From Verrucomicrobiota bacterium (GTDB lineage: Bacteria; Verrucomicrobiota; Verrucomicrobiia; Opitutales; Opitutaceae), in the NCBI GenBank assembly GCA_016235555.1, contig JACRKC010000048.1, forward strand, positions 1 to 64,000: a stretch of DNA of 64,000 bases, written 5' to 3'. A program made the position numbers and the translations under genes. This document shows, in pieces, positions 1 through 63,693 of this stretch (position 1 is the first letter of the stretch; every line of letters begins with the position of its first letter). A model generated the notes under the pieces. It saw only the letters and a program-made list of their open reading frames with translations. It was not told the DNA's origin and made no database searches.

Positions 1-65
1 CGGCGGTCGCAGACCGCCGCTACAACCAAGGCCCCGGTTTACTGAACTCACTTCCGGTTGCACCC
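1..65. repeat. Right end of a MITE-like element cut by the window edge
   Basis: Bases 1-24 are the right arm of a hairpin pair ending CTAC, the same family as the copies at 21475, 47253 and 63470. Bases about 36-65 match the right terminus (reading outward to CACCC) of the complete elements at 26351-26545 and 63439-63580. The left half lies outside the window, so a target duplication cannot be tested. Confidence 0.7.
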
Positions 66-2534: not shown

Positions 2535-4178
2535 TCAACCCTTCCCCGGCACGCAGATCCCGCAGGTGTTCACGAAGAAATCGTTGCCCTTGTCGTCGAC
2601 GAGGATGAACGCGGGGAAGTCCTCCACGTCGATCTTCCACACCGCTTCCATCCCGAGCTCGGGATATTCGAGCACCTCGACCTTCTTGATGTTCTCCTTG
2701 GCGAGGATGGCGGCCGGGCCGCCGATGCTGCCGAGGTAGAAACCGCCGTGTTTCTTGCAGGCGTTCGTGACCTGCGCGCTGCGGTTGCCCTTGGCGAGCA
2801 TCACCATCGAGCCGCCGAGCGACTGGAAGAGATCGACGTAGCTGTCCATGCGGCCGGCGGTCGTCGGGCCGAACGAGCCCGAGGCGAAGCCTTTCGGCGT
2901 CTTGGCCGGGCCGGCGTAGTAGACCGGATGGTCCTTCAAATACTGCGGCAGGCCCTGGCCGGCGTCGACGCGCTCCTTGAGTTTTGCGTGGGCGATGTCG
3001 CGTGCGACGATGAGCGGGCCGGTGAGCGACACGCGCGTGGTGACCGGATATTTGGAGAACTCCGCGAGGATTTCCTTCATCGGCCGGTTGAGGTCCACGC
3101 GCACGATCTTGTCGTCCTTCAGCGTGCGGAGCGCCGCCGGGATGAAGCGGCCGGGGTTGGGGTCGAGTTGCTCGAGGAAGATGCCGTCCCTGGTGATCTT
3201 CGCCCGGATGTTGCGGTCGGCGCTGCAGGAGACGCCCATCGCGACCGGGCAGCTCGCGCCATGGCGCGGCAGGCGGATGACGCGCGCATCGAGGGCGAAA
3301 TACTTGCCGCCGAATTGGGCGCCGATGCCGCTCGCGCGCGCGATTTCGAGCACCTTCTTTTCCATCGCGAGATCGCGGAAGGCCCGGCCGTGCTCGTTGC
3401 CGGTGGTCGGGAGGGCATCGAGGTATTTCGCCGTGCCGAGCTTGAGGGTCTTCATGCACTGCTCGGCGCTGGTGCCGCCGATCACGAACACGAGGTGATA
3501 GGGCGGACATGCGGCCGTGCCGAGCAGCGGCAGCTTGTCGGCGACGAATTTCTCGAAGCTCTTCGGATTGAGCAGCGCCTTCGTTTCCTGAAACAGGAAC
3601 ATCTTGTTGGCGGAGCCGCCGCCCTTGGCGACGAAGACGAATTCGTATCTGGCCCCCCCGGTCGCCAGCACATCGATCTGCGCGGGCAGGTTGGTGCCCG
3701 TGTTCACTTCGTTCCACATGTCGATCGGCGCGGTCTGCGAGTAGCGGAGATTCTCCTTCGTGTAGCACTCGTAGACGCCCTTCGAAATCCACTCGGCGTC
3801 GTTCGCGCCGGTCCAGACTTGCTGGCCTTTCTTCGCCATCACCGCGGCGGTGCCGGTGTCCTGGCACATCGGCAGGATGCCTTCGGCGGCAATCTCGGCG
3901 TTTTTCAGCAGCGTGAGCGCGACGTAGCGGTCGTTTTCGCTCGCCTCCGGGTCGGCGAGAATCGCCGCCACCTGCTCGAGGTGCTTGGTGCGCAGCAGAA
4001 ACGCGCTGTCGTGAAACGCCTGCTGCGTCACGAAGGCCAGCGCCTCGGGCTCGACCTTCAGAATTTCGCGGCCCTCGAAGGTGGTGGTGCTCACGCCCTC
4101 CTGGGAGAGCAGGCGATACTCGGTCTCGTCGGCGCCAAGCGGAAACGGCTCCTGATAGGTGAACGGCGGGGTTGGCAT
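2535..4178 (-). CDS. fumA: Class I fumarate hydratase (FumA/FumB type)
   Basis: A 547-residue iron-sulfur fumarase, which interconverts fumarate and malate in the TCA cycle. It is a fusion of the alpha-type (N-terminal) and beta-type (C-terminal) domains in one chain, the usual length for FumA/B. The three cysteines expected to hold the 4Fe-4S cluster are at 105 (PMCQDTGT), 224 (AACPPYH) and 318 (VSCSADRN), matching FumA numbering. The C-terminal half has the beta-domain motifs [11 protein letters not shown] and GSIGGPAA. It is a cytoplasmic, oxygen-sensitive enzyme. Monocistronic, with its promoter region shared with the divergent DUF1501 gene. The subtype name is by similarity; another class I lyase is unlikely. 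Confidence 0.95.
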
Positions 4179-4275
4179 AGTGGGTCAAAGCTGGCCGATC
4201 CTGGCCGCGTGTAAAGTCGGGCAGGTCCTGGCCCGGACCTATTAACCGTGACGTGGGACCCGTAAGCGTTTCGAC

Positions 4276-4306
4276 TATGGTCCGGTCGGAGCCTGACCTG
4301 ACCATA
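4276..4306. promoter_or_regulatory. Imperfect inverted repeat between divergent genes
   Basis: Arms TATGGTCCGGTCGG (4276-4289) and CCTGACCTGACCATA (4292-4306) are inverted with two or three mismatches. The repeat ends 8 bp before the DUF1501 start codon and lies in the 136-bp space between it and the divergent fumarase gene. It could be an operator or a leader hairpin; function is inferred from position only. Confidence 0.35.
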
Positions 4307-4314
4307 CGCCCCCC

Positions 4315-5742
4315 ATGCCCTGCCACCACTACACGCCTGTCGCTTCGCGTCGTGATTTTCTCCGCACCGCCGGTTGTGGCTTTGGCGCCGTGGCGCTCGC
4401 GGCGCTGACGCGCACGCCGCTGCCTGGTGCCTCGACATCGCTTGCGCCGGCCGGCGCCGCGCTCACCGGCCGCGCGGGGCGGGCGAAGAATGTCATTTTC
4501 CTTTTCATGGAGGGCGGGCCGAGCCACCTCGATACGTTCGATCCCAAGCCGCTCATCAACGAGCTCAACGGCCAGAAACTGCCGTCGAGTTTCAAGCCGC
4601 CGATCCTCGCGATGGGCGAGTCGAACTCCCCGATCATGGGCAGCCCGCGCCAGTGGACGCAGCACGGAAAAAGCGGCCTGTGGGTGAGCGATTGGTTCCC
4701 GCATGTCGCGCAGCACGCCGACGATCTCGCGGTGATCCGGTCGTGCGTGTCCGACGGCATCAACCACGCGGGCGGGGTCTGCCAGATGAACACCGGCTCG
4801 GTGTTCGGCGGGCGTCCGTCGCTCGGCGCGTGGGTCGACTACGGGCTCGGCACGGAAAACAAAAACCTCCCCGGCTTTGTCGTCATCAAGGACAGCGAGA
4901 AGGAGGTCGTGAACGGCGCGCGCAACTGGGGCAACGGTTTCATGCCCGCCGTGCACCAAGGCGTGGAGTTCAGCGCCGGCGCCTCGCCGATCCGCTACCT
5001 GCAGCCGCCGCGCGGCCACGACGAGACCCGCCAGCGCGACAAGCTCGACCTGCTCGCGTCGCTCAACCGCGGGCACGCGGCGACGCGCGCCGACAACACC
5101 GAGCTCGACGCGCGCATCCGCAGCTACGAACTCGCCTTTCGCATGCAAGCCGAGGCACCGGGCACCGTCGATCTGGCGAAGGAAACCGCCGCGACGAAGG
5201 CCCTCTACGGGCTGGAGCAGAAGGAGACCGCGGTGTTCGGCCGCAACTGCCTGCTCGCGCGCCGGCTCGTCGAGCGCGGGGTGCGTTTCGTGCAACTCTA
5301 CAGCGGCGCCGGCAGCGGCTGGGACAGCCACACCGAGCTCGAGAAGAACCACTCCGCGCTCTGCCGCGCGGTCGACAAACCCATCGCGGGGCTGCTCGCC
5401 GATTTGAAATCGCGCGGCCTCCTCGATGAGACGCTGGTGATCTGGGGCGGCGAGTTTGGCCGCACGCCGATGGCCGAGCAAAAAGGCGGGCGCGACCACA
5501 ACCCCACCGGCTTCACGATGTGGATGGCGGGTGGTGGCGTGCGCGGCGGCCAGGTGATCGGTGCGACGGACGAACTCGGCCTCTACGCGGTGAAGGACCG
5601 GCTGCATGTGCACGATCTCCACGCGACGATCCTCCACCTGCTCGGCCTCGATCACACCGCGTTGATCTACCGCCACCAAGGCCGCCCCGAACGCATCGAC
5701 CTGAACGAGGGCAAGGTCTTCCGCGGTCTGGCGAAGGCGTAG
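4315..5742 (+). CDS. DUF1501 family protein, Tat-exported
   Basis: A 475-residue secreted protein of the DUF1501 family, which has an alkaline phosphatase/sulfatase-like fold; its biochemical role is not established. The N-terminus carries a twin-arginine signal (SRRDFLRTAG, residues 11-20, then a hydrophobic Ala-rich stretch). Family motifs include FMEGGPSHLDTFDPKP, GGEFGRTP and GRDHNP near the C-terminus. Unlike the three DUF1501 genes downstream, this one has no PSD1 partner directly before it. Its TAG stop lies inside the GTAG foot of the repeat at 5739-5818. Confidence 0.92.
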   Translation: MPCHHYTPVASRRDFLRTAGCGFGAVALAALTRTPLPGASTSLAPAGAALTGRAGRAKNVIFLFMEGGPSHLDTFDPKPLINELNGQKLPSSFKPPILAMGESNSPIMGSPRQWTQHGKSGLWVSDWFPHVAQHADDLAVIRSCVSDGINHAGGVCQMNTGSVFGGRPSLGAWVDYGLGTENKNLPGFVVIKDSEKEVVNGARNWGNGFMPAVHQGVEFSAGASPIRYLQPPRGHDETRQRDKLDLLASLNRGHAATRADNTELDARIRSYELAFRMQAEAPGTVDLAKETAATKALYGLEQKETAVFGRNCLLARRLVERGVRFVQLYSGAGSGWDSHTELEKNHSALCRAVDKPIAGLLADLKSRGLLDETLVIWGGEFGRTPMAEQKGGRDHNPTGFTMWMAGGGVRGGQVIGATDELGLYAVKDRLHVHDLHATILHLLGLDHTALIYRHQGRPERIDLNEGKVFRGLAKA

Positions 5743-7748: not shown

Positions 7749-7864
7749 GGGCGCAGATCAGTTTCTGGCAGTCCGGAGAGGGCGACGGAGCGGCGGTTTT
7801 CAACCGCCGAGCTTGGGCGCTTGGAAAAGCGCCCCTCCGCAGTGCAAGAAAGTGAGATGCGCCC
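7749..7864. mobile_element. MITE-like element, 116 bp, with 9-bp flanking repeat
   Basis: Outer ends GGGCGCAGATCAGTTTCTGG and the inverse of GGGCGCATCTCACTTTCTTG enclose two hairpins (GGGCGCTTGGAAAAGCGCCC and CGGCGGTTTTCAACCGCCG). It is flanked by ATGGTGCGG (7740-7748) and ATGGCGCGG (7865-7873), 8 of 9 identical, as a target duplication would be. Inverted relative to the copies at 32223 and 53839. No coding capacity. Confidence 0.75.
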
Positions 7865-13794: not shown

Positions 13795-16290
13795 ATGCCC
13801 CGCCGAGTTGTCATCATCTTGTCGTCTGTGTTTCCGCTTGCCGCTGTGCTGGCTGCCGGTGCGCCCGTGCCGGCCCGGATCGAGTTCAATCGCGATGTGC
13901 GGCCGATTCTTTCGGACAACTGCTTTTATTGCCACGGGCCTGACGCGTCACATCGCAAGGCCAAGCTCCGGCTCGACGTGCGCGAGGTCGCGCTGGCGAA
14001 GGAGGCGATTGTGCCGGGCAAGCCCGCCGACAGCGAACTCGTCATCCGCTTCCACTCGAACGATCCCGAGGAGGTGATGCCGCCGCCGGACTCGAACAAG
14101 AAACTCACGGCTCGCGACAAGGCCGTGCTTGAGCGGTGGATCGCACAGGGCGCGGGTTACCAGCTGCATTGGGCTTACGAGCCGCCGGCGAAACCGGCGA
14201 TTCCGGCCGACGCCAACGCCATCGATTCGCTCGTCGCGCGGCGGCTCGCCGAGGTGGGCCTCAAGTCGTCGCCCGAGGCCGACCGGCGCACGCTCATTCG
14301 TCGCGTGACTTCGGATCTCACGGGCTTGCTGCCGACTCCTGAGGAGGTGGATGCATTTGAAAAGGACCGCGCGCCCGACGCCTACGCGCGCGTCGTCGAC
14401 CGTTTGCTGGCGAGTCCGCACTACGGCGAGCGCATGGCGATCGGGTGGCTCGATGTCGTGCGGTTTGCCGACACGATCGGTTACCACAGCGACAATCCGC
14501 GCAACGTCTGGCCGTATCGCGACTGGGTGATCCGGAGTTTCAACGAGAACAAGCGGTTCGATCGCTTCACGCTGGAGCAGATCGCCGGCGACCTGCTGCC
14601 CGATGCGAATCGCGAGACGCGGATCGGGTCGGCGTTCAACCGGCTGTTGCTCACGACCGAGGAGGGCGGGGCGCAGCCGAAGGACTACGAAGCGCGCATG
14701 TTGGCGGACCGCGTGCGGGCGATCGGCGCGGGATGGCTCGGGCAGACGACCGGGTGTGCGCAGTGCCACGATCACAAATTCGACCCCTTCACGACGCGGG
14801 ACTTCTACGCGCTCGGCGCGTTTTTCGCCGACGTGAAAGAGCCGGTCATCGGCCGCCGCGAGGAAGGCATGGTGATCGCGCCGCCCGAGCAGGAGGAAAA
14901 ACTCGCCGCCCTCGATCGCGAGGTGGCGGCCAAGCGCGCCGCCGTCGCCGCGCTCACGCCGGAGTTCGATGCGGCCGAGGCCGAGTGGGTGTCCGCCGCC
15001 ACCGCCCAGCCGCCCACGGGCCTGCCGCGGGCGGTCGCGGCGGCGTTGAAGAAGGACCCCGACACGCGCACGGCGCGCGACCAGCAGGTCCTGCGCAACC
15101 ACTTCCGCACGAAGGTCGCGACGATCGGCCGCGAGGAACTCGCGGCGTTGACCGCCGCCGAGCAGGAGCGCAAGACGTTCGCCGATTCGCTGCCGCATTG
15201 CCTCGTGACCGAAGCGGCCCCGAAGAAGCGCGCGGTGCGGATCCTGCCGCGCGGAAACTTCCTCGACGACACCGGCGAAGTGGTGACAGCGGCGCTGCCC
15301 GGCTACCTGCCACGGCCGGACTTCGGCGGGCGCGAACCCAACCGGCTCGATCTCGCCCGGTGGCTCGTGTCGCGGGAAAATCCGCTCACCGCGCGCGTCG
15401 TGGCGAACCGGTTGTGGCAGCAGTTTTTCGGAGGCGGCCTCAGCCGCGTGGCGGGTGATTTCGGCGCGCAGGGCGAGCCGCCGCGCAATGGCGCGCTGCT
15501 CGACTGGCTCGCGGGCGAGTTCATGGACCGCGGCTGGGACGTGAAACACCTCGTGCGCACGATCGTGTTGAGCGCGACCTACCGGCAGACGTCCGTGGCC
15601 ACGCCGGAGCAGCTCGCGGCCGATCCGGAGAATCGCGAGTTCGGCCGGCAGGGCCGGCATCGCGTCGAAGCGGAGCTGGTGCGCGACCGCGCGCTTCAGG
15701 TGGCAGGCCTGCTGTCACCCCGCGTCGGCGGCCCGAGCGTGAAGCCTTATCAGCCGGACCGTTACTGGGAAAACCTCAACTTCCCGCCGCGCGACTACGA
15801 AATGGACCGCGGCGAGGCGCAATATCGTCGCGGGCTTTATGTCTGGTGGCAGCGGACCTTCCTGCACCCGGCGATGCTCGCGTTTGACGCGCCGAGCCGC
15901 GAGGAGTGCGCAGCGGAACGCAGCCGGGCGAACATCCCGCAGCAGGCGCTCGTGCTCCTGAACGACCCGAGCTACGTGGAGGCGGCGCGGGTGTTTGCGG
16001 CGCGCATCGTGCACGAGGGTGGCGCGACGGCGGACGCGCAACTGCACTGGGCTGGCAAGCAGGCACTCCAGCGAACGCCGAGTGCGAGTGAGACCAAGAC
16101 GGTGTCGGCATTGCTCGAAGAACATCGGCGCATCTACCGCGCCGATCCCGCTGCGGCCAAGGCGCTCCTCGCCACGGGCGACGCGCCTTTGCCAGCTGGC
16201 CTCGCGACGGACGGCCTCGCGGAACTCGCCGCGTGGACGCATGTGGCGCGCGTGCTCTTCAACCTGCACGAGTTCGTCACGCGCGATTGA
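13795..16290 (+). CDS. PSD1-type protein without LamG domain (pair 2)
   Basis: An 831-residue exported PSD1 protein. The ATG at 13795 starts a signal peptide ending near residue 22; the frame is open further upstream to 13375, but that part is repeat DNA. It has a CxxCH haem site (CFYCH, 43-47), DUF1549 (about 140-340, with CAQCHDHKFDPF) and DUF1553 (about 510-825, NPLTARVVANRLWQQFFGGG). It lacks the LamG-like insert of its two paralogues and is 240-290 residues shorter. The following DUF1501 gene is 124 bp downstream. Likely periplasmic; reaction unknown. Confidence 0.9.
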   Translation: MPRRVVIILSSVFPLAAVLAAGAPVPARIEFNRDVRPILSDNCFYCHGPDASHRKAKLRLDVREVALAKEAIVPGKPADSELVIRFHSNDPEEVMPPPDSNKKLTARDKAVLERWIAQGAGYQLHWAYEPPAKPAIPADANAIDSLVARRLAEVGLKSSPEADRRTLIRRVTSDLTGLLPTPEEVDAFEKDRAPDAYARVVDRLLASPHYGERMAIGWLDVVRFADTIGYHSDNPRNVWPYRDWVIRSFNENKRFDRFTLEQIAGDLLPDANRETRIGSAFNRLLLTTEEGGAQPKDYEARMLADRVRAIGAGWLGQTTGCAQCHDHKFDPFTTRDFYALGAFFADVKEPVIGRREEGMVIAPPEQEEKLAALDREVAAKRAAVAALTPEFDAAEAEWVSAATAQPPTGLPRAVAAALKKDPDTRTARDQQVLRNHFRTKVATIGREELAALTAAEQERKTFADSLPHCLVTEAAPKKRAVRILPRGNFLDDTGEVVTAALPGYLPRPDFGGREPNRLDLARWLVSRENPLTARVVANRLWQQFFGGGLSRVAGDFGAQGEPPRNGALLDWLAGEFMDRGWDVKHLVRTIVLSATYRQTSVATPEQLAADPENREFGRQGRHRVEAELVRDRALQVAGLLSPRVGGPSVKPYQPDRYWENLNFPPRDYEMDRGEAQYRRGLYVWWQRTFLHPAMLAFDAPSREECAAERSRANIPQQALVLLNDPSYVEAARVFAARIVHEGGATADAQLHWAGKQALQRTPSASETKTVSALLEEHRRIYRADPAAAKALLATGDAPLPAGLATDGLAELAAWTHVARVLFNLHEFVTRD

Positions 16291-21474: not shown

Positions 21475-21542
21475 GTAGCGGCGGTCTGTGACCGCCGACG
21501 AATCGCTCTTCACCCACTCCGGCGGTCATAGACCGCCGCTAC
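21475..21542. repeat. GTAG-type hairpin pair (GTAGCGGCGGTC family)
   Basis: Starts GTAGCGGCGGTCTGTGACCG and ends GGTCATAGACCGCCGCTAC. Each arm is itself a hairpin (CGGCGGTC/GACCGCCG). Related copies are at 1-24, 47253 and 63470. It ends 9 bp before the next start codon, leaving no room for an ordinary ribosome-binding site outside the repeat. Confidence 0.85.
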
Positions 21543-26334: not shown

Positions 26335-26350
26335 GCCGGATGGTCCGATC

Positions 26351-26545
26351 GGGTGTGACGCAAACCGAGGCCAGAAAGCGTCGAAAGGCCCTGTAAGAGC
26401 GTGCGCACCCGCGCCGGCTCGGCGTAGCGACGGGCGTCCCTGCCCGCCGGGTTTGGCCGTGTTCGAACGCCTCGAACCGGCGGGCACGGAGGCCCGCCGC
26501 TACCACCGAGGCCTACGAGAACTGACCTCAGTTTGAGTTACACCC
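26351..26545. mobile_element. MITE-like element, 195 bp, perfect 9-bp target duplication
   Basis: Ends GGGTGTGACGCAAACCGAGG and the inverse of GGGTGTAACTCAAACTGAGG. It is flanked on both sides by GGTCCGATC (26342-26350 and 26546-26554). The right duplication runs into the TonB receptor stop codon. The interior carries a GTAG-type hairpin pair at 26424-26503 as if acquired by a second insertion. No open reading frame of its own. Confidence 0.85.
26424..26503. repeat. GTAG-type hairpin pair nested in the MITE
   Basis: GTAGCGACGGGCGTCCCTGC at the left, and an arm ending CGGCGGGCACGGAGGCCCGCCGCTAC split by a short loop at the right. Same family as 5739-5818, which stands alone. Confidence 0.8.
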
Positions 26546-26552
26546 GGTCCGA

Positions 26553-28613
26553 TCAAAAGGTCAGCCTGACACCGAGAGTCACGCCCCGGCCGGCCAGTGG
26601 CGCAAATTCCTTCAGGAAGGAGGTGTGCTCGCGGGCGATGACGTCGCCCAGGTTCTGCCCGCGCAGAAACAACTCGTAGCTGACCCGGCCGGCGGCGATC
26701 AGGTAGGCGACGTTGGCGTTGACCAAGGTGTGGCCGGGCGTGGCCGACTCGGCGGTGGCCAGGTGCGATTGAGACTGCGTCCGGCGGGCCTCGACGCCGA
26801 GCCGCCAGGCCGCGTCGCCGTAGCTCAGGCGGCCGCCGTAACGGACGGGCGGGATGCGAGGCAACGGTGTGCCCGAGGTGCGTTCGTGCGCGCGCACGAC
26901 GTCGGCGGTCGTCTCGAGGTGAAGGTGGCGCGGGCCGGATTCGAGTAAGTGGAACACCAGTTCGAGTTCGGCGCCGCGAAAGTCGGCGTCGCGGGCGACG
27001 AACTGGTAGGGCGTCAGACGTGCCTGGTTGTGCGCGGCCGGGACGACCGACTCCGGGAGCTCCTCCTCGAAGATGTAGCCGGAAAACCGGTTCGCGAACA
27101 CGCCGACCGAACCGGTGACGAATCCCGCCCGCCGCCGGAGGCTGAGGTCGAAGCCGAGGGAGCGTTCGTTGCTGAGGCCGCTCGTGCCGACTTCGTAGGC
27201 CCCGGTGCCGCCGTGCGGACCGTTGGAGAACAGTTCCTGCGCCGTCGGGAGACGTTCCGTGTAGGCGAGCGCGAGTCCGACTGACCAGTCCTTCGCGGGA
27301 CGGAAGACGAGCCCGGCGGATGCGCTGGCGCCGGCGAAGTTTTTCCGCTGGTCCGAGCGGGCCGAATAGCCCGGCACGGCCGGCAGCCCGGCCTCAACCT
27401 CGCCGAGTTTGATGGCCTGATGTTCGAGGCGGCCGCCGAACTGGAACGTGAGCACGTCGCTGGCCTGGTAGTCTTCGACGGCGAAGATCGCCGTATTGCG
27501 CGTGAGCGAGGGCGGCGTGGCGACTTCTTCGCCCACGGCCGCGAAGTCGCTGAAGGTGCCTTGCAGGCCGACCGAGCCGCTCAACGCGCCGACACTCGCG
27601 TGCGGAAGTTCGAGCCGGCCTTCCCAGGCGCGATTCGTGAACGTGGTGTTGACGGTCGATCCGCCGGAGAGCTCGGCGTGCCGGTAGTCGCCGAAGCTCG
27701 AGTGCAGCTGCAGGCCCCGAAACGGCCCGAACGCCTGGGTGCTTTCGGCTTCGAGGTCGAATCGCGTCTGCCGGAGGTCGATGCTGATCGCGGGCTCGTC
27801 GCCGGTGGGCACGCCGTAGTTGGTCTCGTAACGCGTCACCGAGGCGCCGGCGTGTCCGGACTTCCAGAACTTGGTGAAGCCGCCGCCGAGGCTCGTCGTC
27901 TCGGTGGCGCTGCCGGGCAACGTGTCGCGTGGTTGCCCGGCCGGGGCATCGGCGTCGATGCGGGCGACACCGGGGATGCGCACGTCGGCGGTTTGCTGCC
28001 GCAGGGCGTTGACGCGAAACGCGAGCCCATCGGCGCCGTGGCCAACCGAGACTACGCCGGTGCGCTCGCGGGCCGCGCCGCCGAAGCGGGCTTCCGCCGC
28101 GCCACGGGCGTGCCCGTCGGGCGCGGTGTCGGGGATGGTGTTGTCGATGACGTTGACGGCACCGCCGACCGCGGAGCTGCCGTAGCGGAGGGCACTGGGG
28201 CCGCGCAACACCTCGATGCGAGTGGCGAACAGCGGCTCGAGCGCGGTGTTGTGGTCGGGGCTGATGCTCGAGGCGTCGAGCGCGCCGATGCCGTTGTCGA
28301 GCACGCGCACGCGATCGCCGCCGAGGCCGCGGATGACCGGGCGGCTGGCACCGGGGCCGTAGGACGCCGCGCTTACGCCGGGGATCGAGGCGAGCGTTTC
28401 GCCGAGGGTGGCCTGGGCCAGGCGGCGCAGGTCTTCGCCGGCGAGCACGGAGGTGCCTTGGGCGAGGTCGAAGGAGGTTTTGGGATCGGGACCGGCACTG
28501 ACGACGAATTGGTCGAGGCGGTTGATCTCAGTCGCGGGGGCCGCGGCGGTTTGGGCGTCGGCCGGCAGGGCCGCGCAGGAGGATAGCAAAAGCAACGAAC
28601 GAAAAGTGGACAT
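26553..28613 (-). CDS. TonB-dependent outer-membrane receptor
   Basis: A 686-residue TonB-dependent receptor. The ATG at 28613 starts a signal peptide ending near ADA-QT (residue 20); the frame is open further upstream but overlaps the next gene. The plug domain (about 30-150) has NRLDQFVVSAG, LGETLASIPGVS and the conserved VIRGLGGDRVRVLDNG and LRGPSALRYGSSAVGGAVNVID. The remaining part is a 22-strand-type barrel ending in the usual terminal Phe. The plug and barrel resemble metal/zinc-type receptors more than siderophore receptors. The neighbours (small His/Cys protein, CusF-like domains, ModAB) also point to a metal substrate, which is an inference. Confidence 0.92.
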   Translation of the reverse strand: MSTFRSLLLLSSCAALPADAQTAAAPATEINRLDQFVVSAGPDPKTSFDLAQGTSVLAGEDLRRLAQATLGETLASIPGVSAASYGPGASRPVIRGLGGDRVRVLDNGIGALDASSISPDHNTALEPLFATRIEVLRGPSALRYGSSAVGGAVNVIDNTIPDTAPDGHARGAAEARFGGAARERTGVVSVGHGADGLAFRVNALRQQTADVRIPGVARIDADAPAGQPRDTLPGSATETTSLGGGFTKFWKSGHAGASVTRYETNYGVPTGDEPAISIDLRQTRFDLEAESTQAFGPFRGLQLHSSFGDYRHAELSGGSTVNTTFTNRAWEGRLELPHASVGALSGSVGLQGTFSDFAAVGEEVATPPSLTRNTAIFAVEDYQASDVLTFQFGGRLEHQAIKLGEVEAGLPAVPGYSARSDQRKNFAGASASAGLVFRPAKDWSVGLALAYTERLPTAQELFSNGPHGGTGAYEVGTSGLSNERSLGFDLSLRRRAGFVTGSVGVFANRFSGYIFEEELPESVVPAAHNQARLTPYQFVARDADFRGAELELVFHLLESGPRHLHLETTADVVRAHERTSGTPLPRIPPVRYGGRLSYGDAAWRLGVEARRTQSQSHLATAESATPGHTLVNANVAYLIAAGRVSYELFLRGQNLGDVIAREHTSFLKEFAPLAGRGVTLGVRLTF

Positions 28614-32222: not shown

Positions 32223-32338
32223 GGGCGCATCTCACTTTCGTGCACTGCGGAGGGGCGCTTTTCCAAGCGCCCAAGCCCGGCGGTTGAAAACCGCCGCTCC
32301 TTCGCTCTCTCCGGACTGCAAGCAACTGAGCTGCGCCC
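32223..32338. mobile_element. MITE-like element, 116 bp
   Basis: The same family and length as 7749-7864, in the opposite orientation: outer ends GGGCGCATCTCACTTTCGTG / inverse of GGGCGCAGCTCAGTTGCTTG, with inner hairpins GGGGCGCTTTTCCAAGCGCC and CGGCGGTTGAAAACCGCCG. A direct repeat CAACGACAA lies at 32209-32217 and 32340-32348 but not exactly at the ends, so the target duplication is uncertain here. It sits between modA and the CusF-like gene. Confidence 0.75.
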
Positions 32339-39112: not shown

Positions 39113-39266
39113 GGGTGGCATCTCAGTTTCCTGCAATGTGCCGCACCGCGGGGGTGGGCCGGGCGCTCCGCGCCCGGCCAGCGCGCTGTGATTCCCGCGC
39201 GCTCCTGGCCGCTCGTGGAGCGGCCGGCCCACCTTTCGGCCTGCTGCAAGAAAATGAGATGCGCCC
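39113..39266. mobile_element. MITE-like element with a different inner cargo
   Basis: Outer ends GGCATCTCAGTTTCCTGCA and the inverse of GGGGCGCATCTCATTTTCTT match the family at 7749 and 32223. The inner hairpins are unlike those copies: GTGGGCCGGGCGCTCCGCGC and CTCGTGGAGCGGCCGGCCCAC. A flanking duplication could not be settled. So the outer ends are conserved while the interior differs. Confidence 0.65.
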
Positions 39267-47252: not shown

Positions 47253-47321
47253 GTAGCGGCGGTCTCCGACCGCCGTCGGTGCGCCGGGGCTTTTCGTCCG
47301 GCGGTCATAGACCGCCGCTAC
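47253..47321. repeat. GTAG-type hairpin pair (GTAGCGGCGGTC family)
   Basis: Starts GTAGCGGCGGTCTCCGACCG and ends CGGCGGTCATAGACCGCCGCTAC in the same form as 21475-21542. Confidence 0.85.
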
Positions 47322-53838: not shown

Positions 53839-53954
53839 GGCGCATCTCACTTGCTTGCCCTGCGGAGGGGCGCTTTTCCAAGCGCCCAAGCCCGGGGGTT
53901 GAAAACCGCCGCTCCTTCGCTCTCTCCGGACTGCAAGCAACTGAGATGCGCCCG
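53839..53954. mobile_element. MITE-like element, 116 bp
   Basis: The third copy of the 116-bp form (7749, 32223), with ends GGGCGCATCTCACTTGCTTG and the inverse of GGGCGCATCTCAGTTGCTTG and the same inner hairpins. Flanks TATCCTTCG / CGTCCTACG agree at about 6 of 9 positions, which is weak. The element ends 2 bp before the stop codon of the adenylate cyclase gene. Confidence 0.75.
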
Positions 53955-62745: not shown

Positions 62746-63357
62746 TCACCGCCGCGGTCGCTTGAAACGCTTTCGCGCAGCGTCGGCCGGCTCGCGCATC
62801 ACGCAGCCCTCCACGTGATCGTTGATCAGGCCCATCGCCTGCATGAAGGCATACACCGTCGTCGGGCCGACGAATTTCCAGCCGCGCTTTTTCAGTTCCT
62901 TCGAGAGCGCGATCGATGTCGCCGAAGTCGACGCCGTCTGCGGTTTCGCGAGCGGATCGGACGCGGGTTCGTAGCGCCAGATGAAGGCCGCCAGCGATCC
63001 TTCGCGCGCGATCAATTCCTGCACACGCCGGGCGTTGTTGATCACGGCCTCGATTTTCCCGCGGTGGCGGATGATGCCTTCGTCTTTCAGCAGCCGCGCG
63101 ACATCCCGCGCCGTGAAGCGCGCGACGCGGTCGAAATCGAAATCGTGAAACGCCGCGCGGAAGTTTTCGCGTTTGGCGAGGATGGTCCGCCAGCTCAGCC
63201 CGGACTGAAATCCCTCCAGGCATAGTTTCTCGAACAGCCGGCGGTCGTCGCCGACCGGCAGGCCCCACTCGGAGTCGTGGTAGGCGGGAAACTCCGGCGC
63301 GGCGCTGCACCAGCGGCAGCGCGCCTTGCCGTCGGCGCAGACGATGGTGGCGTTCAT
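62746..63357 (-). CDS. tag: DNA-3-methyladenine glycosylase I (Tag)
   Basis: A 203-residue base-excision repair enzyme that removes 3-methyladenine from alkylated DNA. Zinc-binding residues fit Tag: Cys14 and Cys17 in CRWC, His27 in the AYHDSEWG segment, and a C-terminal HVEGC (about 182-186). The conserved GFQSGLSWRTIL helix and the EGIIRHRGKIEAVINNA region are present. Cytoplasmic. No terminator or partner gene nearby. Repeats surround it on both sides. Confidence 0.93.
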   Translation of the reverse strand: MNATIVCADGKARCRWCSAAPEFPAYHDSEWGLPVGDDRRLFEKLCLEGFQSGLSWRTILAKRENFRAAFHDFDFDRVARFTARDVARLLKDEGIIRHRGKIEAVINNARRVQELIAREGSLAAFIWRYEPASDPLAKPQTASTSATSIALSKELKKRGWKFVGPTTVYAFMQAMGLINDHVEGCVMREPADAARKRFKRPRR

Positions 63358-63438
63358 GCAGTGGAGGACTCGATTAAAGATGCCGGCATCGCGCTTCAGT
63401 GCCGGGTCGCGCTCGACTTGTCGACGGCAATGCTCACC

Positions 63439-63580
63439 GGGGTGGAACTCAAACTGAGGTTGGCGATTTGTAGCGGCGGTCTATGACCGCCGGCGTGGCG
63501 CCAAGGGGATTCGTTCGGCGGTCATAGACCGCCGCTACAGCCGAAGCATTCGGAAACTGACCTCTGTTTGAGTTGCACCC
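63439..63580. mobile_element. MITE-like element, 142 bp, perfect 9-bp target duplication
   Basis: It starts GGGGTGGAACTCAAACTGAG and ends with the inverse of GGGTGCAACTCAAACAGAGG. It is flanked by ATGCTCACC at 63430-63438 and 63581-63589. Inside is the GTAG-type hairpin pair at 63470-63538. It lies in the 336-bp gap between tag and the polyphosphate glucokinase gene; from 63590 to 63693 nothing else is recognisable. Confidence 0.85.
63470..63538. repeat. GTAG-type hairpin pair nested in the MITE
   Basis: GTAGCGGCGGTCTATGACCG to CGGTCATAGACCGCCGCTAC. It is the same family as 21475 and 47253, where it stands alone. Confidence 0.85.
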
Positions 63581-63693
63581 ATGCTCACCGGGTCTGGCAG
63601 TTTTTGTTCGTAGTCCGGCCGTCCGCCGGACTCGAATCACCGCGGTTGTTCTCCCGGCGGATTCCCGCCTTATTCCTTCACCTCGGCTCTTCC

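Follow-up and report, generated by a model that had tools for sequence, protein, structure and literature searches.

A MITE with ISKra4-type ends and an exchangeable REPIN-like core in a Verrucomicrobiota genome

An insertion between two divergent genes

The window analysed here, a stretch of 64,000 nucleotides from a Verrucomicrobiota bacterium (positions 1 to 64,000 of contig JACRKC010000048.1), carries close to its right end two divergent genes, one for a methyladenine glycosylase (62746-63357, minus strand) and one of the ROK family (from 63694, plus strand). Between them lies an element of 141 bp, 63440-63580, which sits 82 bp upstream of the former and 113 bp upstream of the latter and is built in two layers. 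The outer layer consists of TIRs of 21 nt, 90% paired, at 63440-63460 and 63560-63580 (GGGTGGAACTCAAACTGAGGT and ACCTCTGTTTGAGTTGCACCC, respectively); the inner one is a GTAG-tagged hairpin pair, formed by an inverted repeat of 24 nt, 100% paired, at 63469-63492 and 63516-63539 (TGTAGCGGCGGTCTATGACCGCCG and its complement), with 23 nt between the arms. The parts of this element and the related repeats of the window are the following:

21475..21542, unstranded: standalone REPIN, core as in 63440-63580, without TIRs
26342..26350, unstranded: duplication of 9 bp, GGTCCGATC, to the left of the sibling element
26351..26545, unstranded: sibling element, 195 bp, hybrid, with a core of the GTAG-CGRCGGGCGTCCC type
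26546..26554, unstranded: duplication of 9 bp, GGTCCGATC, to the right of the sibling element
39114..39266, unstranded: type-B MITE, bounded by GGTGGCATCTCAGTTTCCTGCA and TGCAAGAAAATGAGATGCGCCC; core of the 153-bp GGTGGGCCGG kind
47253..47321, unstranded: standalone REPIN, core as in 63440-63580, without TIRs; spacer resembling the MITE spacer
63430..63439, unstranded: left target-site duplication ATGCTCACCG (63430-63438 in the 9-bp reading)
63440..63463, plus: left ISKra4-type TIR, short-arm side; ends as in the ISKra4 remnant L193
63469..63492, plus: REPIN core, first REP hairpin; CGGCGGTC-TAT-GACCGCCG, preceded by GTAG at 63470-63473
63493..63515, plus: REPIN spacer, 23 nt, GCGTGGCGCCAAGGGGATTCGTT, in the orientation called forward
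63516..63539, minus: REPIN core, second REP hairpin, inverted
63540..63556, plus: long-arm linker from the core to the right end, GCCGAAGCATTCGGAAA
63557..63580, minus: right ISKra4-type TIR
63581..63590, unstranded: right target-site duplication ATGCTCACCG

Because the last base of the target is G and the element begins with GGG, one G can be assigned either way: the flanks can be read as a 9-bp duplication, ATGCTCACC being present twice, around an element of 142 bp, or as a 10-bp duplication of ATGCTCACCG (63430-63439 and 63581-63590) around one of 141 bp. The second reading fits better, because 40 of the 67 elements collected in a first pass through a 2.36-Mb sample of the genome are exactly 141 bp long; an exact 10-bp flank match was found in two copies, the window copy among them. 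A chance repeat is ruled out by shuffled windows, in which no TIR matches were found, by the control on mismatched flanks given below, and by the folding of the element, which is very strong and lies 13 standard deviations below that of shuffles.

A preliminary description of this DNA had proposed a MITE with a perfect duplication at 63439-63580, and both the two layers and the duplication are borne out, with one base ambiguous (9 or 10 bp). It had also placed the ends in the family of the sibling element, which is correct for one side: the right end of 26351-26545 belongs to the A-type family of 63440-63580, but its other end differs just inside the TIR, and the sibling is a hybrid.

Copy number and combinations of ends and cores

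The source genome comprises 8.03 Mb in 140 contigs, of which 2.36 Mb (29%), sampled by contigs, were used for element counts. The end motif, with up to three mismatches, matches 163 times in forward and 162 times in reverse orientation in the whole genome. Among the 67 first-pass elements, 22 are flanked by exact 9-bp duplications and another 12 by duplications with one mismatch; in the control, made of the flanks of mismatched copy pairs, the corresponding levels are 0.02% and 0.05%. The 141-bp element is short, non-coding and present in high copy number, as is typical of MITEs. A 71-bp A-type element that has no hairpins and shows an 8/9 duplication was also observed, in L140 at 14175-14245 (G000:C41:114175-114245), and may be a minimal mobile form or else the product of a later deletion.

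Three end types, related to one another, were distinguished: A (GGGTGTAACTCAAACTGAGGTCAG), A' (GGGTGTAACAGGAAGTGAGGTCAG) and B (GGGCGCATCTCAGTTTCTTGCA). The 2.36-Mb sample holds 124 paired elements with these ends and five hairpin-pair cores; all five common cores are inverted strong hairpin pairs, and their sequences are different. The combinations are distributed as follows:

A/A ends (49 elements): CGGCGGTC REPIN core in 42, the combination of the window copy; 26351-type core in 5
A'/A' ends: CGGCGGTC REPIN core in 14
Mixed A/A' ends: 4 of the 124
B ends: GGAG-hairpin pair in 30, GGTGGGCCGG pair in 16, GAGGCG pair in 5
Remaining elements of the 124: other core or none

Target duplications are seen in every class with at least five members, and type B, with 56 pairs in the sample, constitutes a second high-copy MITE family. 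The three type-B cores are unrelated, with total lengths of 116, 153 and 93 bp, and REPs of theirs occur in the window at 7787-7809, 32278-32300 and 53893-53915.

Ends and cores are separate modules. A fixed pairing of inner and outer parts, which would have spoken against this, was looked for and is not what the elements show: type A is found with two cores, type B with three, and one core is shared by A and A'. The earlier proposal that the outer ends move together while the inside is exchangeable holds at the level of the family; the main lineage is instead a fixed unit of 141 bp, in which core and ends have been amplified jointly, and exchange is therefore occasional. Similarly, the cores of 63440 and 26351 do differ, but the "different inner cargo" attributed to the former had been judged from the wrong side, because the 63440 copy represents the norm (42 of 49 A/A elements) and 26351 the exception; 63440-63580 as a lone copy with an odd cargo is rejected, this being the commonest form.

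The interior shows further variation. In the 35 sampled type-A copies that have the spacer of the window copy, this is forward in 13 and reversed in 22, and a single orientation is found in all 14 scorable A' elements. Spacer orientation is weakly associated with the outer arms (p 0.027), and the tree of the outer arms needs 8 spacer changes, a count that is merely indicative because 37 of its 47 inner branches are unresolved. The two hairpin loops usually match within an element (TAT/TAT, TGC/TGC or TGT/TGT). In the 2.36-Mb sample (29% of the genome) no REPIN-empty MITE with a matching filled copy, as would document an insertion, was seen. The contig begins within an A'-type element (window 1-65, a REP arm followed by ...GTTGCACCC), and MITE/REPIN repeats therefore probably break the assembly.

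Affiliation of the two layers

The outer ends of 63440-63580 are of the ISKra4 type. The genome contains three ISKra4-family transposases, two in intact copies and one in a remnant. The intact copies have ends unlike those of the MITE and duplications of 9/9 and 8/9; the remnant L193, of 859 bp and with a C-terminal transposase fragment (E 7e-20), has the ends GGGTGTAACTCAAACTGATGTCAG ... CTGACATCAGTTCGAGTCCCGCCC, which are the MITE ends. Furthermore, homologous ISKra4 transposase genes in relatives adjoin GGGTGTAACTGGAAGTGAAGTCAG, a sequence near-identical to the MITE ends, and the ISKra4 element of one relative bears type-B ends (GGGCGCATCTCAGCTTCTTGCA) together with a 9-bp duplication. Both marks of an ISKra4 MITE, namely TIRs in common with an ISKra4 element and a 9-bp target duplication, are therefore present. 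No intact ISKra4 with type-A ends was found in the genome or in the relatives examined, an absence that is not certain for the former, whose assembly is fragmented and 98.6% complete. Type-A ends had no match in 56 relatives, with up to two mismatches, nor in an exact search of a genome collection that may leave out the source genome.

The core reads GTAG followed by CGGCGGTC-nnn-GACCGCCG, arranged in inverted pairs, which is the form of a REPIN, and it exists independently of the MITE. The exact pattern was counted 130 times in the source genome, 52 times in the genome G037, 13 in G115 and 11 in G070, and the REPIN is also present, in many copies, in Spartobacteria, Opitutaceae, Methylacidiphilum and gp5 Acidobacteria records. 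Two inverted GTAG REPs and standalone copies outside MITEs, two of the features by which the REPIN class is recognised, were both found; in the 2.36-Mb sample most full REPINs with the CGGCGGTC core lie inside MITEs. CT, the dinucleotide cleaved by TnpA-REP (PMC8266576), occupies the two bases before GTAG in 150 of the 168 flanks taken from the different genomes; among the local MITEs, TT and CT are equally common. A G037 locus (L297) and an Opitutaceae bacterium (L378) have one REPIN flank in identical form, from which Opitutaceae is most likely the family of the source genome. Standalone single hairpins of the form GTAGGGCCGGTC-nnn-GACCGGCC (G000:C53:50194, in L159; C82:180086, in L070; C108:130279, in L147) make up a further REP family without MITE ends.

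REPIN hairpin doublets are attributed to RAYT (TnpA-REP) tyrosine transposases (PMC3116915, PMC2817692, PMC8266576). Among the ten Y1-transposase matches of the source genome none is a RAYT flanked by the exact MITE-core REP, and the REPIN's own mobiliser therefore appears to be missing there. Several of these matches, the RAYT genes L183, L185, L187, L188 and L190, each have beside them a GTAG-hairpin family of their own, with sequences unlike the MITE core. In the relative G115 a RAYT is flanked by the near-identical hairpin GTAG-CGCCGGTC-TCC-GACCGGCG; the local RAYTs, which share only 26-36% identity with it, were rejected as close matches. Since the local RAYTs carry other REPs and the nearest one is that of G115, the core is to be called REPIN-like in form, with a putative RAYT partner.

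The same REPIN is found within other ends. In G037 it lies in GAGCCTATCCGAATAAC ends, in gp5 Acidobacteria within GGCTTTGCACA ends, and in the CAIQCK bin within ends around CTTTGCAAAAGTC; a record of Verrucomicrobia from groundwater (L383) has it within type-B-like ends. A 3-bp duplication for the G037 element, seen in 5 of 23 cases, is weak and not clearly above the level of about 12% given by chance. The gp5 Acidobacteria elements with GGCTTTGCACA ends appear inserted into palindromic sequences (L324 ~5419-5489, L384 ~4240-4310, L325 ~4018-4088).

Origin of the composite and relation to known systems

We consider it probable that the element is a two-layer MITE, in which ISKra4-type ends hold a captured REPIN passenger that was amplified jointly with them and whose core was later reshuffled. 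An ISKra4 transposase would have cut and inserted the whole 141-bp unit, leaving 9-bp duplications (10-bp in the window copy), and the inner layer, two inverted GTAG REP hairpins around a short spacer, would be a REPIN. We infer that it entered by RAYT insertion; its capture inside an ISKra4-end MITE, followed by amplification as a passenger, would explain the single core and uniform length of most A-type copies. Later on, the spacer would have been flipped between the two perfectly paired arms, and elements would have traded cores and halves of their ends, probably by recombination or template switching at hairpins that they share.

This last step is the one that a narrower explanation takes as sufficient, in which the exchange of cores would be due solely to gene conversion or homologous recombination among MITE copies, with no RAYT involved after, or in, the capture. 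The existence of A/A' hybrids (4 of 124), the inversion of spacers between perfect inverted arms and the usual match of the two loops within an element all speak for it, and flips and hybrids could arise at perfect inverted repeats through recombination of the ordinary kind or through template switching; it fits poorly, however, with type-B ends that hold three cores sharing no sequence and with one REPIN in unrelated ends across phyla, and we regard it as a serious possibility that falls short of being the likely one. Far less credit is given to the idea that the hairpin pair has been the interior of a single ISKra4 MITE from the start and that standalone pairs are MITEs minus their ends, in the same way as small QMITE2 copies in Coxiella are read as truncated MITEs (PMC5896051). 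The single core and single length of most A-type copies, and standalone spacers that in some cases resemble the MITE spacer (e.g., 47253-47321), would agree with such an origin, but the REPIN is common outside the source genome, where A-type ends are absent at the thresholds given above, and it occurs in other phyla and inside ends seemingly unrelated to ISKra4 ends, which makes this reading very improbable.

It is also conceivable, judging from sequence and predicted folding, that the cores are kept for a putative function, for example in terminating transcription in both directions or in stabilising RNA, that unrelated MITEs come to carry them by convergence, and that with such a core an insertion close to a gene would be better tolerated. 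The five common cores all consist of inverted strong hairpin pairs despite their different sequences, and the window copy folds very strongly, as this would predict; the same copy, however, lies between divergent genes, where a terminator has no obvious use, and we judge both the retention for function and the tolerance of insertions unlikely. Returning to the capture of a REPIN by an ISKra4-type MITE, a rather doubtful extension, put forward only tentatively, is that it exemplifies a general two-layer system of Verrucomicrobiota and Acidobacteria, in which MITEs of unrelated DDE transposons would be colonised by REPINs time and again, and either transposase could mobilise the product; the outer layer would spread the unit with duplications and the inner one would be replaced or flipped, giving modular hybrids.

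The element links two mobile systems that are usually kept apart, the MITEs of DDE transposons and the RAYT-linked REPINs, and its more than 100 copies in one genome offer material to measure the rate of movement and exchange of each layer. As most full REPINs with the CGGCGGTC core in the sample lie inside MITEs, MITE transposition can inflate the REP counts from which the activity of RAYTs is inferred.

With ISKra4-family insertion sequences and their MITEs the element has in common TIRs starting with GGG, the 9-bp duplication and the ends of ISKra4 genes; it differs in that it codes for nothing and that the hairpin pair at its core can be exchanged, and a literature search on ISKra4 found no MITE of such kind. 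With REPINs and GTAG REPs associated with RAYTs (PMC3116915, PMC2817692, PMC8266576) it shares the inverted GTAG hairpin pair with a short spacer, the CT beside GTAG, the high copy number and the standalone copies; typical REPINs are without TIRs or target duplications, whereas most copies here lie inside DDE-transposon ends. On REPINs nested in MITEs, the literature search gave nothing direct beyond QMITE2 (PMC5896051) and a remark in PMC3733652, in which O. terrae is also described as rich in GTAG repeats.

QMITE2 of Coxiella burnetii, as presented in the part of PMC5896051 consulted, is a MITE of 150-190 bp with long TIRs, direct repeats of 7-11 bp and a GTAG REP inside, and bare REP copies occur elsewhere in the genome; in 63440-63580 a GTAG REP is likewise enclosed by TIRs and by direct repeats, a likeness by description. 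Unlike here, the REP is counted in that part of the report as belonging to one MITE, no transposase family is named and no core exchange between end types is described. A MITE with a GTAG REP inside is, therefore, already known (PMC5896051); what is new, as far as the literature was searched, is that cores and ends are interchanged, that the ends are assigned to ISKra4 and that the core recurs in several end families. REP dimers of Anabaena variabilis and Halothiobacillus neapolitanus (PMC3733652) are regularly nested in a longer palindromic tract, in a similar manner; those tracts were taken to be targets of insertion, and neither a duplication nor a transposase was assigned to them, whereas the outer tract of the element described here is a transposon end pair with duplications.
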